Origin: Spirochaetes bacterium ADurb.Bin133
GTDB taxonomy: Bacteria > Spirochaetota > GWE2-31-10 > MWDO01
Assembly: GCA_002070605.1 (NCBI GenBank)
Contig: MWDO01000009.1
Coordinates: forward strand, 1-64,000
Length of the DNA: 64,000 nucleotides
Reading direction: 5' to 3'
In this document: positions 3,047-61,661 of the stretch, piece by piece
How positions within the stretch are numbered: the stretch's first letter is position 1
Layout: every line of letters starts with the position of its first letter
Translations under genes and position numbers: made by a program
The notes under the pieces: model-generated
Database searches by the model: none
The model's input: only the letters and a program-made list of their open reading frames with translations
What the model was told of the DNA's origin: nothing

Positions 3047-3366
3047 ATATTTAGAATTCAAAATCAAAAAATTTGGAACTGCTCGACGAAAGATCTACCG
3101 AACCAACCGCAATTCCGGCGAGCGCGTAGTTTCTTTTCCATACTATTTCTACGACGACAAAACCGGAATTGGCGGAAAGTCAATTGATTATTATAATTAT
3201 TAAAAGCCTAAAGACAAGCCATGCGCGTTTATTTGCATATTCTAAACGGGAATTCCCAATTTATTAGCGCTATTTTCTAAAATTTTTTCTTCTTTTTGTA
3301 AATCGTTTTCATCTTTTAGTTGTTAATTATATATGAGAGTTTTTTGCTTTCTAATACTTTTCGAGG
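3047..3366. other. Intergenic region with an inverted repeat and a GGGAATTCCC repeat
   Basis: No gene is visible here. CCGCAATTCCGG (3107-3118) and CCGGAATTGGCGG (3163-3175) form an inverted repeat with a one-base bulge and a 44-base loop. GGGAATTCCC at 3248-3257 is a copy of the palindromic repeat found at 53 and 61.6 kb. The conserved upstream block of the RHH-like gene lies at 3304-3334. A left terminal repeat of the element family was not found here. Confidence 0.55.
3304..3334 (+). promoter_or_regulatory. Conserved upstream block of the RHH-like gene (copy 2)
   Basis: The sequence CGTTTTCATCTTTTAGTTGT, then TAATTATATAT, closely matches the blocks upstream of the related genes at 1-167 and 27854-28369, although the coding sequences have diverged strongly. 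This suggests selection on a promoter or operator. Confidence 0.5.
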
Positions 3367-8266: not shown

Positions 8267-8444
8267 GTAACTCGTCGGTTTTTTGGGGTTTAATAGTTAA
8301 AAATATCTGACACATATGCGTCGAATTTATTTATCAAGGAGCGGCGCGGCGCATATGCGTCGAATTTTTTCATCAAGGAGCGGCGCGGCGGCTATGCAGC
8401 TCCATATGTGTCAATTTCCTCTCCACAAAAAAACCGACGGGCGT
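8267..8444. mobile_element. Repeat element E3, both ends, three CATATG sites
   Basis: The left end is GTAACTCGTCGGTTTTTTGG and the right end CACAAAAAAACCGACGGGCG. Inside are CATATG cores at 8313, 8352 and 8403, separated by GC-rich units that include GGAGCGGCGCGGCG. A direct repeat TTTTATATT lies at 8258-8266 and 8445-8453, a possible 9-bp target duplication, though the AT-rich sequence makes chance matches more likely. The element sits between two divergent signalling genes and fills most of this gap. Confidence 0.75.
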
Positions 8445-8543
8445 TTTTATATTTACAAAATATCGTTTCATTTAAAATCTTTTATATGGAAATTTTGTTT
8501 TTAATGTATTATAATAGTATGTTGAGAGATTAAAGCAAATACT

Positions 8544-26731: not shown

Positions 26732-26875
26732 GTAACTTGTCAGTTTTTTGGGAAATTAAAAGTATTTGTTTCATATGTGTCAATTTTATTTGTCTCATAT
26801 GCGTCGAATTTTTCATCAAAGAGCGCTTGCGGCGCATATGCGTCATTTCCCCACCCAAAAAAACTGACGGATTAC
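26732..26875. mobile_element. Repeat element E7 with perfect 9-bp target duplication
   Basis: The ends are GTAACTTGTCAGTTTTTTGG and, read inward on the other strand, GTAATCCGTCAGTTTTTTTG. The 9-bp sequence CCTTCCCTA stands directly outside both ends (26723-26731 and 26876-26884), the mark left by transposition. Inside are the subterminal module (ATTAAAAGTATTTGTTTC) and CATATG cores at 26772, 26796 and 26835. At 144 bp it has no coding capacity. The right-hand duplication contains the stop codon of the glycosyltransferase gene. Confidence 0.9.
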
Positions 26876-27694: not shown

Positions 27695-27853
27695 CTTTTA
27701 GTAACTAATATACGGGCGATCTCAGCGATTCAAAAAAGTCGCTAAGCGCCTTCTTAAAACATACTAAATCTGAAATAACGTTTCCAGATTGTCGAGTATC
27801 ATATTAAATAAGCCTAATTAAGTCAATTTTTTTTTAAGGCGCCCCGTCGGTTT

Positions 27854-28369
27854 CTACGTATAATAGACGTATTTGGGATAATTTTTGATTACAAGCTCGT
27901 ATAATAGCTGTTTTCGAGCGGCGATATTTAACAGTTGTGTCATTTTATCCAAAAAGTCGTTTTGCAACTTATCAATCCTTAATTTTTTACCAACAAACTC
28001 AAGAAATCCTTCCAACCCGTATTTCACGACGCCGTTATAGAAAAACAAGATAATATCTCGAACCGTCGAAGCCATACCGAATTCGTTATACAAAGAATGC
28101 CATCTTTTAATTTGAAGATAGTCCGCTTCGCTAATCCTGAGGTATTTATCCAGCCTTTTATCGTCGGTATTGTCTATAACGGCGTATTCGGAGCGATAAT
28201 TCCCGATTATTCCTTTCATCTTTGGTATTTTTTTGTTAACAAGACGAAACATAGTTTCAAATAACTCGCTGAATGTATTAATTTTGAACTCTTTTAGTAA
28301 AAAATCTATGACGTTGTTATTCATAGATTCGGATACTATAAAATGAAATAGATGCTTTTTGTTTTTCAT
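27854..28369 (-). CDS. Element-borne double-RHH-like protein
   Basis: The 171-residue protein starts after AAGGAG and has no membrane helix. Two segments look like ribbon-helix-helix units: residues 6-45 (LFHFIVSESM, then helices ending FSELFETMFRLV) and residues 76-112 (strand YLRISEADYLQIKRW, then GMASTVRDIILFFY). The second fits the RHH pattern of a short strand followed by two helices well. The C-terminal third is helical and basic. A near-identical copy begins at 167, and a divergent relative is at 3376-3951. It has no transposase motif. As an RHH protein it would bind palindromic DNA as a dimer; the CATATG palindromes upstream of its own gene are natural candidates. Both points are inference. 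Confidence 0.75.
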   Translation of the reverse strand: MKNKKHLFHFIVSESMNNNVIDFLLKEFKINTFSELFETMFRLVNKKIPKMKGIIGNYRSEYAVIDNTDDKRLDKYLRISEADYLQIKRWHSLYNEFGMASTVRDIILFFYNGVVKYGLEGFLEFVGKKLRIDKLQNDFLDKMTQLLNIAARKQLLYELVIKNYPKYVYYT

Positions 28370-28390
28370 AAAATTTTCTCCTTTTTTTTA

Positions 28391-28418
28391 TATATATAAC
28401 AACTAAAAGTAGAAAACG
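28391..28418 (-). promoter_or_regulatory. Conserved upstream block of the RHH-like gene (copy 3)
   Basis: This is the same TTTTCTACTTTTAGTTGTTA plus TATATAT block as at 191-217, with the variant at 3304-3334. It is 22-49 bp upstream of the start codon. A CATATG palindrome half-site lies about 100 bp upstream of the gene. Confidence 0.5.
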
Positions 28419-28722
28419 TTATACAAAAATTTGGATAAATTTTTAATAAACGACAAATATTTATCTCATATGTGTCAATTTCTCCTACTTTCCAAAACGC
28501 TGAAAGTAATGAAGGCGTCTTAGCTGAAAATATTTGTCCCATATGTGTCAATTTATTCCTAAGATCATATGTGTCAATACCAAAAAACCGAAGGGACGCT
28601 TTTTAACAAAAAATAATATTGACACTAATTTTAAATATGGTAAAAAGTCATACAAGTATAGACGCATATTTTTACGCTTTTATTATAGCGGAAATATTTG
28701 CGCAACGTTATAGGATGTATAG

Positions 28723-32373: not shown

Positions 32374-32472
32374 TAGCCCTGTCGGTTTTTTGGGGAATGA
32401 AAAATAATTTACTAATTAAAAATATCTGTTTCATATGTGTCATTTTCTCACCCCAAAAAACCGAAGAGCGCT
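32374..32472. mobile_element. Repeat element E9, both ends, one CATATG site
   Basis: The left end contains CTGTCGGTTTTTTGGGG and the right end CCCCAAAAAACCGAAGAGCG, so the two pair over about 14 bp. Inside are the module AATTAAAAATATCTGTTTC and one CATATG core at 32432. Flanks TTGTCTACG and TTGTTTATT agree at 6 of 9 positions, possibly a decayed duplication. This is the simplest complete form of the family. Confidence 0.75.
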
Positions 32473-34764: not shown

Positions 34765-35077
34765 CGCGCCCGTCGGTTTCTTGAAATTGACGCATATGTG
34801 TCAAAAATAAAAATGACACATATGGAGCTACATACGCGCGACAATTGACACATATGGCGCTGTATACGCCGCGCCGTTCCCCGATATAAATTCGACGCAT
34901 ATGGGATATTTTGTTTCTAACGGCGCAAGCCCCGATAAGGTCGCGGCATGAACATTTTTTAGTATTTTAGTATATTCAAAACGGGAATTCCCACTTTTAT
35001 CGGGGCGCAACAATTGTCGCATAAAAAATTGACGCATATGGAACGCCGGAGAATCCCTAAAAAAGCCGGCGGGTTAC
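34765..35077. mobile_element. Repeat element E10, both ends, with a nested GGGAATTCCC repeat
   Basis: The left end is CGCGCCCGTCGGTTTCTTG and the right end CCTAAAAAAGCCGGCGGGTT. CATATG cores are at 34793, 34819, 34851, 34898 and 35035. A partial copy of the second repeat family (TATATTCAAAACGGGAATTC) lies at about 34971-34992, so one repeat has been inserted in or recombined with the other. A diverged left arm and no clear target duplication suggest an old copy. Confidence 0.75.
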
Positions 35078-35571: not shown

Positions 35572-35949
35572 TTTGTCCTGGGCGCGTATGAATATTTTTG
35601 GTTACGGCAAAAACTATCATAAATTTTGCGTTAATAGCGTTTCTTTATAACAGAGCTCTGTTTCCAAAATAGACCGCAAACAGGTTTAAAGCTTGCCCCC
35701 AATTCTGTATGGGCGTCGTCAGCTTTTTTGACGCTTTTATCAATGCAAGATACAGCGTTCTATGTAACCCGTCGGTTTCTTGAGGAGAGTAAATGACACA
35801 TATGGAACGACGCATGTGAATTGACACATATGGAACAAATATTTTTAATTCCCCAAAAAAACCGACGGGCGTAAAGTATAACTTTTTTTATTGATTTTAA
35901 GTCAAATTTATGTTTTAATCTGGTAAAAAATAATATAAGGACATATTTT
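35572..35949. other. Intergenic region with repeat element E11
   Basis: Between the PilZ-like gene and the ligase gene, no coding sequence was recognised. The first ~190 bp holds nothing clear, element E11 occupies 35764-35872, and the rest is AT-rich promoter-like DNA. Confidence 0.6.
35764..35872. mobile_element. Repeat element E11, both ends, two CATATG sites
   Basis: The left end is GTAACCCGTCGGTTTCTTGA and the right end CCCCAAAAAAACCGACGGGC. CATATG cores are at 35799 and 35827, and the subterminal module appears inverted (GGAACAAATATTTTTAATT). Size is 109 bp. Confidence 0.78.
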
Positions 35950-38878: not shown

Positions 38879-39298
38879 GTATCCCGTCGGTTTTTTGAAA
38901 TTCGACGCATATGATGTCTGTCATTTCGACGAGCGTAGCGAGGAGAAATCCTTCTATATGCCGGAGATAAAACTATTCGCTACGCTCGCGCGCGCCCCTT
39001 AAGGCGAAATGACACATATGGAGCTATATGCGCCGCGGCGCCGCTTCCCGATAGAAATTCGACGCATATGGAGCTATATGCCGCGGCGCGCTCCCCGACG
39101 AATAAATTGACACATATAAGACGCAGCGCTCTTCAATAAAAAAAATGACACATATGCGAGGCGTCGATAACGCGCGACAATTGTCGTATAAGAAAATTCG
39201 ACGCATATGATGTTAAGAATAAAATTGGAGCATATGTGTCAATTTAAAAGAACTGTTTAAAAAGTTGTCATTTCCCCCAAAAAAAACCGACGGCGCGC
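38879..39298. mobile_element. Repeat element E12 with near-perfect 9-bp target duplication and nested hairpin
   Basis: The left end is GTATCCCGTCGGTTTTTTGA and the right end, read inward, GCGCGCCGTCGGTTTTTTTT. The flanks AAGTATTAT (38870-38878) and AAGCATTAT (39299-39307) differ at one base, a likely target duplication. CATATG cores are at 38908, 39015, 39065, 39151, 39203 and 39231. A separate hairpin repeat is nested at about 38918-39014. The right flank contains the stop codon of the ntrX-like gene. It fills the gap between ttcA and ntrX. Confidence 0.85.
38918..39014. repeat. Nested TGTCATTTCGACGAGCG hairpin repeat
   Basis: TGTCATTTCGACGAGCGTAG at the left and CGCTACGCTCG...CGAAATGACA at the right form a long imperfect hairpin. 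Closely similar TGTCATTTCGA...GAAATC repeats are scattered in many bacterial genomes (established knowledge, recalled rather than searched). Its right arm runs into the next GACACATATG core. Confidence 0.65.
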
Positions 39299-46786: not shown

Positions 46787-46916
46787 GTAATTCGTCGGCT
46801 TTTTGGGTGGGGAATTTGACACATATGCGTCGAATTTTTGTCGGGGAGCGGCGCGGCGGTATGCAGCTCCATATGTGTCAATTTATTTTCCCTCCCCAAA
46901 AAACCGACGGGATACT
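46787..46916. mobile_element. Repeat element E14, both ends, two CATATG sites
   Basis: The left end is GTAATTCGTCGGCTTTTTGG and the right end CCCCAAAAAACCGACGGGAT. CATATG cores at 46822 and 46870 are separated by one GC-rich unit (GGAGCGGCGCGGCGGTATGC). It lies between the antitoxin and pcm genes. The flanks show no 9-bp duplication. Confidence 0.78.
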
Positions 46917-47671: not shown

Positions 47672-49501
47672 TTATTGAATTTTTACGCCAAGGCTTTCAA
47701 CCGTTTCATAAGTTAATCCGCCGATAGCCAAGTTTTTATCCGTTTGATATTTCTCAATAGCGGCAAGAGTTTCTGCCGATAATTTTCCGTCGATAGCTCC
47801 GGGATTATACCCTTTTGCTTTTAAAGCGTTTTGTACTTCTTTAATTTTTGCTTCCGACGAATTAGCTTCGCATAATACTCGTCTCCAATCAATAAAACCT
47901 TCAGATATTTTTACTTTTTTAGAGATGGTTTTGTATTCCTCAGGAATAACAACTACTTTGTAAGATCCGTGTTGTTTAGCTCTGCTAACTTTAACGGTTT
48001 GATATTCGGCCGGAATTACCTCCTCTTTTGCTTCCGGAGGTTTAACCATAATCTTTTTCTCTAAAGTAACATATTCCGCCGGCTCTTCAACTCTACATAA
48101 AGTTTCGGCTCCCGACTCGTCTTTTATTAGTTTCCAGATAGTCTGAGCTTCTTTTACGAGAACTTTTACCTGTTCGGTCTTATATTCTGCCGGTACCTCG
48201 ACAATTTTAACAGACGCCTCTTTTATAAGAATCTTCTCTTCAACTTCTTCATAAACGGGATCTACAATCTCTAATTTCTCGGATCTTTCCGCTACAATAA
48301 TTTGTTCGGTTACTTCCTGATATTTCGGCGGAATATATACCTTTACGTAACACTCGCCCGGTTGAACGTTATAAGGAACTTGTCCATAATCTTTTAAAGC
48401 CGGTCCGCTAAAAACGTGTATCGCGGCGTCCTTTTTGCCATAGTCATAAAACAGAGCCGCTTCGTCGGAACCGTCGCCATTAAAATCCCCCATAACTTCT
48501 CTATCCTGAACAGACGAAAGATTATAATTGCCTTTACCTGAATTCCACGCTCTATTAAGAGTAAAAGCGGTTCCGTCGGATAAAAATGCATGAAGTTCGG
48601 CCGTACTGGATAAATAGTCGTAAAACGCTACCACGTCGTCGAATCCGTCCCCGTTTATGTCGCCGGCTTCTAAACGATCGCCTAAACTCAAAGCCGTATA
48701 ACCGGAGTCGGTTCCCCACCACTCTTTACTTTCAAAAGCCGTTCCGTTTGAAATAAAAGCGTGAATTTTAGCTTTATTTAAACCGTAGTCATATAACGCC
48801 GCCAAATCGTCCTTACCGTCGTTATTGAAATCGCCAGCGACAAATCTGTTGCCGACGTTATCCAAGTCGTAATTTCCTTCGCCTGAATCCGACCACGGAC
48901 TCATAGTAAAAGAAGAACCGGTTGATAGAAATACGTGTATCTTGGTCTGTTTATTAGGATATGCGTAAGCTACCGCTAAATCGTCCTTACCGTCGCCGTT
49001 AAAATCTCCCGCGACAAATCTATTTTTGACGGACGCAACGTCAAATTCGTTTTCTTTAGATTCGTACCAAGTCGCCATAGTAAAAGACGAACCGTTTGAT
49101 AGAAACACGTGAATGCTCGCTTTCTTTGAACCATAGTCGTATAAGGTCGCTATGTCGTCTTTACCGTCGCCGTTAAAATCTCCAGCCGCAATCCTTCCCG
49201 CTACTTTAGAGGGATCGTAATTCCCCTTACCCGAATCGTACCATGAAGATTCTTGAGTAAACTTAGAACCTTCCGATTTGAAAACATGAATTTGGGTCTG
49301 TAAAAACAAATAATCATACATAACGGCGGTATCTTCAAGTTTATCGCCGTCAAAATCCCCGGCTACCACTCTGCCGCCGACTCTTGACAATTCGTAATTA
49401 CCCTCTCCTGATCTCCACCAATCTTTCATCGTATAATCTTCGGCGCATAATAAAATAACGCTTAAAGATAATACCCCCGCAATTAATAGTATTTTTTTCA
49501 T
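47672..49501 (-). CDS. Exported FG-GAP repeat protein with peptidoglycan-binding C-terminus
   Basis: The 609-residue protein has a signal peptide (KKILLIAGVLSLSVILLCAE) and about six FG-GAP/VCBS-type repeats over residues 25-370, each with a calcium-binding-like loop (GDFNGDGKDDIATLYDYG) and a spacing of about 55 residues. A second region (about 375-545) has five or six repeats around PAEYKT/PEEYKT. The C-terminal ~60 residues are a peptidoglycan-binding type 1 domain (IKEVQNALKAKGYNPGAIDG). It is probably an adhesive or structural envelope protein. AGGAGG precedes the start. Confidence 0.9.
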   Translation of the reverse strand: MKKILLIAGVLSLSVILLCAEDYTMKDWWRSGEGNYELSRVGGRVVAGDFDGDKLEDTAVMYDYLFLQTQIHVFKSEGSKFTQESSWYDSGKGNYDPSKVAGRIAAGDFNGDGKDDIATLYDYGSKKASIHVFLSNGSSFTMATWYESKENEFDVASVKNRFVAGDFNGDGKDDLAVAYAYPNKQTKIHVFLSTGSSFTMSPWSDSGEGNYDLDNVGNRFVAGDFNNDGKDDLAALYDYGLNKAKIHAFISNGTAFESKEWWGTDSGYTALSLGDRLEAGDINGDGFDDVVAFYDYLSSTAELHAFLSDGTAFTLNRAWNSGKGNYNLSSVQDREVMGDFNGDGSDEAALFYDYGKKDAAIHVFSGPALKDYGQVPYNVQPGECYVKVYIPPKYQEVTEQIIVAERSEKLEIVDPVYEEVEEKILIKEASVKIVEVPAEYKTEQVKVLVKEAQTIWKLIKDESGAETLCRVEEPAEYVTLEKKIMVKPPEAKEEVIPAEYQTVKVSRAKQHGSYKVVVIPEEYKTISKKVKISEGFIDWRRVLCEANSSEAKIKEVQNALKAKGYNPGAIDGKLSAETLAAIEKYQTDKNLAIGGLTYETVESLGVKIQ

Positions 49502-49581: not shown

Positions 49582-49836
49582 TTAACCCGTCGGTTTTTTG
49601 AAATTCGACGCATATGGAACAACTTTTTTTAATTAGTAAATTATTCGTCTCAATCCAACGCATATGCGTCGAATTTTATTCTTGACGCCATATGTGTCAT
49701 TTTATAGCAAGGAGCGGCGCGGCGGTATGTAGCCCATATGTGTCAATTTGTTTTTGACACATATGGGCTTTTTTATTTATTAGGGCGCATTGCATATGCG
49801 TCATTTTTTTTCTCTCCAAAAAAACTGACGGGATAC
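49582..49836. mobile_element. Repeat element E15, both ends, six CATATG sites
   Basis: The left end is TTAACCCGTCGGTTTTTTGA and the right end CCAAAAAAACTGACGGGATA. CATATG cores are at 49611, 49661, 49689, 49735, 49760 and 49793. The two ends differ at one place where the change leaves a G-T pair (CGG against CTG). No 9-bp duplication is seen. Confidence 0.77.
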
Positions 49837-53316: not shown

Positions 53317-53350
53317 TATATCCAAAACGGGAATTCCCGTTTTGAATATA
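53317..53350. repeat. GGGAATTCCC palindrome (copy with one mismatch)
   Basis: A 34-bp palindrome centred at 53333/53334 (CAAAACGGGAATTCCCGTTT core) has a single mismatched pair. A partial extra copy (AAACGGGATTCG) is just upstream. It sits between two convergent genes and could act as a terminator, though it lacks a clear T run. Confidence 0.75.
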
Positions 53351-53359
53351 CTAATACAC

Positions 53360-55860: not shown

Positions 55861-56012
55861 GTAATTCGTCGGTTTTTTGGGGAGGGAAAATAAATTGACA
55901 CATATGGAGCTGCATAGCCGCCGCTCCTCGATAAAAAAATGACACATATGTGTCAAAAAATAAATTGACACATATGGGACGCCGGCAAATCCCCAAAAAA
56001 CCGACGGGGCGC
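55861..56012. mobile_element. Repeat element E17, both ends, three CATATG sites
   Basis: The left end is GTAATTCGTCGGTTTTTTGG and the right end CCCCAAAAAACCGACGGGGC, which pair over about 18 bp. CATATG cores are at 55901, 55945 and 55971; the middle one is a complete palindrome (GACACATATGTGTC). No 9-bp duplication was found. Confidence 0.8.
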
Positions 56013-61617: not shown

Positions 61618-61661
61618 TATTAGTATATTCAAAACGGGAATTCCCGTTTTGAATATACTAT
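61618..61661. repeat. Perfect 44-bp palindrome centred on GGGAATTCCC
   Basis: Reading outward from 61639/61640, 22 bases on each side are fully complementary (inner part CAAAACGGGAATTCCCGTTT, outer arms AGTATATTC/GAATATACT). Related copies are at 53317-53350, about 34971-34992, 3848-3862 and 3246-3259. It lacks a terminator T run. It might be a protein-binding site or a small mobile hairpin. Confidence 0.85.

Follow-up and report, generated by a model that had tools for sequence, protein, structure and literature searches.

A multicopy transposase-less cassette with a predicted double ribbon-helix-helix protein and putative operator sites in an uncultured spirochaete

An uncultured spirochaete carries many copies of an element whose single gene takes the place of a transposase. 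We describe one complete copy, 761 bp long, and interpret it, with moderate confidence, as a cassette of the MIC/MITE type whose gene specifies a single-chain double ribbon-helix-helix (RHH) protein; this protein would bind CATATG sites, regulate its own gene, and coat or pair the ends of the elements. In bacterial transposable elements, selection normally preserves the transposase, and the rest is lost. This cassette has no transposase, yet more than 50 copies of its gene for a DNA-binding-type protein are intact, and every miniature derivative holds a presumed operator. If the proposed binding is true, a DNA-binding protein has naturally spread through a chromosome in company with hundreds of its sites, and one can then test how dispersed regulatory or architectural sites originate.

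The window is the whole stretch of DNA analyzed, 64,000 nt long, and corresponds to positions 1–64000 of contig C9 in the genome assembly G000 (2.99 Mb, 103 contigs, 95.6% complete). G001 is a sister species of the same genus ("Spirochaetes bacterium Go_SlDig_bin_318", JAGOCL01). Counts of sites and of pairs of terminal inverted repeats (TIRs) in G000 cover 1.55 Mb, about half its genome; the TIR core was counted genome-wide at up to 2 mismatches, with the reversed core as control.

The element and its gene-less derivatives

The complete element occupies 27839–28599. Its inverted ends read GCGCCCCGTCGGTTTC... on the left and ...CCAAAAAACCGAAGGGACGC on the right, with the core CCGTCGGTTTTTTGGG. 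The left TIR (27839–27859, plus strand; core 27844–27859) overlaps the stop codon of the gene, and the right TIR (28579–28599, minus strand; core 28579–28594) closes the unit. The sole open reading frame, on the minus strand at 27854–28369, encodes a protein of 171 amino acids, here called P0001. On the same strand, the gene is preceded by a ribosome-binding site and promoter block (28371–28440, consensus TTTTTGTAAAGAGTTTTCTACTTTTAGTTGTTATATATAT) and by 3 CATATG sites: a proximal site, the candidate operator, some 100 bp from the start codon (28463–28476, CATATG at 28467), a second site (28536–28549, CATATG at 28540), and a third (28562–28575, CATATG at 28566). Sequence inspection bears out the original prediction on the bounds, the single enclosed gene, the 3 sites, and the contact of the left end with the stop codon; its remark that no transposase motif is visible is right for this element. 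A second gene-bearing copy, described earlier as cut by the window start and about 90% identical in DNA, is real: it lies at 1–330 on the minus strand, is 91% identical to 28203–28398, and is incomplete because the window begins at base 1 of its contig, where the assembly breaks.

Two gene copies, the number known from one window, proved an undercount. In G000, tblastn places the gene at 83 positions, about 55 of them full-length and 84% to 100% identical. The others are 3 divergent copies (36% to 42%) and partial matches, mostly at contig ends, which points to assembly breaks. The TIR core gives 471 matches in G000 against 1 for the reversed control, 10 in G001, and control levels in the other genomes compared; the burst of TIR elements is confined to the species represented by G000. 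The sites likewise exceed chance: GACACATATGTGTC has 45 matches in the window at up to 3 mismatches, against 1.0 expected, and exact TTGACACATATG occurs 392 times in 1.55 Mb, against 0 for the reversed sequence, along with 187 close variants.

Most of the family is short. The filter kept 126 TIR pairs in 1.55 Mb, of which 101 measure 450 bp or less and form the gene-less class. Every one of the 101 holds at least one CATATG, and those shorter than 80 bp hold exactly one. In the window, these derivatives include 26732–26875, whose 9-bp target duplication (CCTTCCCTA) is perfect; 8267–8445, with 3 CATATG sites and the duplication TTTTATATT; the long 38879–39298, with 6 sites and the duplication AAGTATTAT/AAGCATTAT; 34765–35077, with 5 sites; 35764–35873 and 46787–46915, with 2 each; 49582–49836, with 6; and 55861–56012, which has the window's one perfect GACACATATGTGTC. 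The idea that the short elements are deleted forms of the gene-bearing one holds for some, such as 32374–32472, which keeps the gene's upstream block and a single CATATG as its putative operator; others are separate mosaics. As short, multicopy TIR units with target duplications and no coding capacity, placed between genes, the gene-less forms match MITEs and bacterial miniature elements. They differ in that the gene-bearing form is still abundant here and that the short forms have modular CATATG arrays.

The RHH gene, with its 55 or so copies, is the sole recurrent cargo gene found; other genes appear as isolated instances. A minority of TIR/CATATG elements carry toxin-antitoxin-type genes, as mobile cassettes do: C1:62765–64286 (L091) holds a ParE-type toxin and a nucleotidyltransferase gene, and C1:147958–148769 (L095) holds a HicA toxin and a HicB-like partner. 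The cargo of TIR elements is thus not exclusively the RHH gene. This setting raises the idea that a toxin-antitoxin module maintains the cassette and that P0001 is one of its two partners or descends from such a module, the more so as RHH is a common antitoxin fold. We consider this very unlikely: the cassette has no second open reading frame and hence no adjacent toxin gene, P0001 has no match to an antitoxin family in Pfam or NCBIfam, and tandem RHH units in one chain with extra C-terminal helices would be an unusual antitoxin layout.

Two further repeats were seen in the window. A separate palindromic repeat, TATATTCAAAACGGGAATTCCCGTTTTGAATATACTA, is found at 53317–53353 and 61624–61660, and also at 3236 and 34971; it is sometimes nested in, or adjoins, CATATG elements. 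The open reading frame 47672–49501 contains 4 imperfect repeats of about 110 nt at 48563–49191, spaced by 171 to 174 nt.

Insertion, target duplication, and origin

This gene-bearing element is absent at the orthologous site in the sister species. Window positions 27727–27834 align to 982–870 of G001 contig C409, and 28601–28681 align to 868–788, such that the flanks abut at an empty site; this supports the proposal that the gene-bearing element is a mobile unit. The motif TTTTTAA on both sides of the element (27831–27837 and 28600–28606) is consistent with a decayed target duplication. A short element, C8:47125–47224, is likewise absent from G001, and ATTTATTT is duplicated around the insertion. 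Among 74 elements, with the expectation taken from mismatched flanks, 8 have perfect 9-bp duplications against 0.08 expected and 5 more match at 8 of 9 positions against 0.77 expected, counts that are slightly inflated because the 74 include 2 pairs of overlapping, end-shifted calls of one element; the excess is unaffected in substance. Perfect duplications also flank 2 gene-bearing copies (L003 and L024). None of 120 elements lies inside an open reading frame of at least 100 amino acids, though 88% of the sequence codes. The family therefore inserts into intergenic DNA with 9-bp target duplications.

TIRs, a target duplication, and a passenger gene in place of the transposase gene are the features of MICs, transposase-less units that are moved in trans, as this one presumably is. 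The present family differs from MICs in having about 55 full-length copies in one genome with no parent insertion sequence found, and in having a DNA-binding-type passenger that is under selection in all copies examined and whose probable sites form part of both the element and its derivatives. The 9-bp duplications suggest a DDE transposase. In G000, which is 95.6% complete, no member of the DDE_Tnp_1, IS1595, or IS1 families (PF01609, PF12762, PF03400) was found, and the IS256 family (PF00872) is represented by 2 small remnants without matching terminal repeats and by no complete gene. As no transposase with matching ends was found, we infer supply in trans, by a DDE enzyme that would now be lost or unassembled. 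The IS256 remnants, both broken, are the sole transposase traces met (C3:99831–99959 and C36:17665–17832; L322, L323).

The REP/REPIN-RAYT systems also come to mind, since they too link one gene family with short palindromic repeats that lie between genes in their hundreds. A REPIN-like element would move as a single-stranded hairpin by means of a RAYT-type tyrosine transposase, an account that fits the short palindromic intergenic units, the strong folding of their transcript, and the very high copy number of the short forms. Yet target duplications are present and point to a DDE enzyme, the gene is itself multicopy and does not encode a Y1 transposase, and the ends vary independently, which leaves hairpin pairing without conservation; we regard this account as scarcely credible. 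The hairpin reading was rejected on covariation, as left and right ends covary at one position only, and that position separates subfamilies. A search of the element against Rfam returned nothing above the curated threshold.

Where the gene came from is indicated by the 3 divergent G000 copies, which are syntenic with G001 copies (C24/L041, C8/L045, and C12/L042). They have no TIRs of their own but do have an upstream CATATG site. The C24/L041 pair is collinear over 1.6 kb with dN/dS 0.12; the C12 copy is closest in protein to L043 rather than L042, and replacement or conversion may have occurred there. G001 also has one TIR-bounded gene copy, at 84% identity. Together, the syntenic TIR-less copies and the single bounded copy in G001 suggest that resident RHH genes probably came first and that a TIR-bounded version multiplied in the G000 species. 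The cassette would probably have arisen by capture of such a TIR-less chromosomal gene between repeats.

The encoded protein and selection on its copies

The original prediction guessed at a double RHH protein of a family that it did not recognize, and both parts agree with the follow-up. Searches of P0001 against Pfam, NCBIfam, PHROGs, and PDB sequences gave no match at a convincing E-value; tblastn against phages and plasmids gave nothing significant; and scans of viral contigs found no homologue. Matches to the TIR and CATATG patterns in viral contigs were scattered and single, and were taken as chance. On these profile and sequence searches, the family appears undescribed. An AlphaFold2 model from 11 sequences (pLDDT 81, pTM 0.78) predicts 2 strand-helix-helix units in one chain: strand 5–12 with helices 18–27 and 33–44, and strand 73–80 with helices 81–93 and 99–126, followed by C-terminal helices. 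The best PDB match in Foldseek is TraY of the F plasmid (probability 0.95, TM score on the target 0.64), with a weak E-value of 0.63, and VirC2 of the Ti plasmid is also among the matches. P0001 is thus predicted to consist of 2 RHH units.

F TraY, a monomer, takes the full fold of an RHH dimer, and its molecules bind along DNA as a train (PMC12117103). P0001 would share with TraY and VirC2 the 2 RHH units per polypeptide and the arrays of sites. It differs from them in having no detectable sequence similarity, in its extra C-terminal helices, and in that its gene sits in chromosomal intergenic cassettes rather than a relaxosome locus. The searches of PDB sequences (no convincing match) and of the plasmid collection (no match), together with the chromosomal-type intergenic setting, give no ground for counting P0001 among relaxosome proteins.

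Distant homologues, at about 21% to 28% identity, occur in 4 other genomes (G002, G004, G005, and G008) that have no CATATG repeats. They match Pfam RHH_1/RHH_3 only weakly, are multicopy in G004 and G005 without these TIRs, and extend the family across the order. The original prediction had set homologues in genomes lacking CATATG repeats against its own reading. Such homologues exist among the distant members, whereas all relatives of at least 36% identity lie in the 2 genomes that have CATATG sites (G000 and G001). The single RHH homologue of G002 (C133:140–827; L064, L110) has copies of a palindrome, AAGAATAGTCCTTATGGACTATTCTT, at its flanks. The palindrome flanking this homologue (AATAGTCCNNNNGGACTATT) was considered as parallel evidence and set aside, being found at only 9 places in that genome and looking like a terminator.

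Gene copies in G000 evolve under purifying selection. None of the 53 full-length copies analyzed has a premature stop, and their lengths fall between 168 and 172 amino acids. Over all pairs, the mean dS is 0.46 and the mean dN 0.055, for a dN/dS of 0.118. Sister pairs give 0.127, and constraint accordingly acts on recent branches too. A random change in the gene creates a stop in 5% of cases, such that hardly any neutral copy would still be open at this age. The gene-copy tree is star-like, with terminal branches accounting for 3.5 of a total length of 4.1 and few well-supported nodes; with synonymous sites saturated in such a set, the singleton N/S ratio of 0.42 was given no weight. Beyond 30 bp, linkage between polymorphic sites sits at the 1/n floor; at shorter distances it is raised (0 of 1,000 permutations), which makes short-tract conversion between copies, or homoplasy, likely. 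Either process blurs the histories of single copies but by itself does not hold reading frames open.

CATATG sites and the role of the protein

P0001 probably binds CATATG sites of the TTGACRCATATG type, its putative operators, as judged from their placement. CATATG recognition, as the original prediction proposed, is plausible, with the protein as a candidate regulator, nucleoid-type binder, or mobility accessory. In 47 of the 49 copies with enough upstream sequence, the nearest CATATG lies 100 to 135 bp before the start codon (mostly 120 to 125 bp), usually as TTGACACATATG or TCGACGCATATG oriented toward the gene. Across these copies, identity in the promoter block is mostly 95% to 100%, well above that at synonymous sites, and sequence farther upstream is without conservation. 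Nearly all G001 relatives, which are about 40% identical, have GACACATATG or a near variant before a promoter of similar sequence. As the 2 RHH units differ from each other, an asymmetric site would be expected for a single-chain protein of this kind. Binding to TTGACRCATATG-type sites would explain both the near-fixed upstream site, through self-regulation, and the presence of at least one site in each short derivative, although the latter could also mirror descent from few progenitors. On site arrays, the protein may serve the element family as an architectural or end-pairing factor, much as TraY forms trains on oriT.

A more ordinary account holds that the RHH gene is plain MIC cargo: repeats and a trans-acting transposase would suffice for movement, and CATATG would be the host operator of a host regulator. 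The TIR-less genes with upstream CATATG at syntenic loci in both species, the constraint on C24/L041, the toxin-antitoxin-type genes in other TIR elements, and the multicopy distant members of G004 and G005 without these repeats all speak for it. The site kept in every short gene-less element, the RHH gene as the one recurrent cargo, and selection on all copies, which is unusual for redundant cargo, speak against it, and we hold it to be possible but doubtful. The elements may also form a selfish operator-protein system, in which the RHH protein is needed, preferentially in cis, for spread or retention, and miniatures survive only with a site; element-level selection would then act on the gene of a DNA-binding protein instead of on a transposase. 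We consider this less likely than not, by a fair margin.

Alternatively, the protein may act as a nucleoid organizer that coats dispersed sites, about 1,100 by extrapolation, with many gene copies supplying dose and the host keeping them for chromosome structure or silencing. The exact and variant TTGACACATATG counts, the dispersed intergenic placement, and purifying selection on all copies are in keeping with this role. Still, 39 exact sites and one mobile copy suffice in the sister species, and the sites are located inside mobile elements, where element spread alone would put them; we judge this role improbable. Autoregulation, combined with array or end binding on behalf of the element family, is favored over coating of the host chromosome.

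A further operator-like motif lies inside the gene at codons 139–147 (27929–27955, minus strand; TTTTTGGNTAAAATGACACAACTG in the family). These codons have the lowest synonymous diversity in the gene, with permutation p of 0.005 to 0.07 in windows of 6 to 10 codons and no significance at 12 codons. G001 relatives encode (L/M)THM at this position, mostly with ACACATATG. The motif is suggestive only, because family members without CATATG sites also have the protein motif (T/S)HM.

Several observations in G001 concern the same motifs in other settings. The promoter block of the cassette gene (TTTTTGTA...TTGTTATATATAT; L328–L333) is found as well before ssb, before lipoprotein-like genes, and before one more divergent clade of RHH genes, and may represent a promoter of general use or a regulatory box that these genes share. 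In contigs C166 and C305 (L305, L320), CATATG-type sites apparently fall within repetitive threonine-rich coding sequence, an odd location for an operator. At C6:93–192 (L294), 5 tandem 22-bp units, each with TTGACACATATG, stand outside any TIR element.
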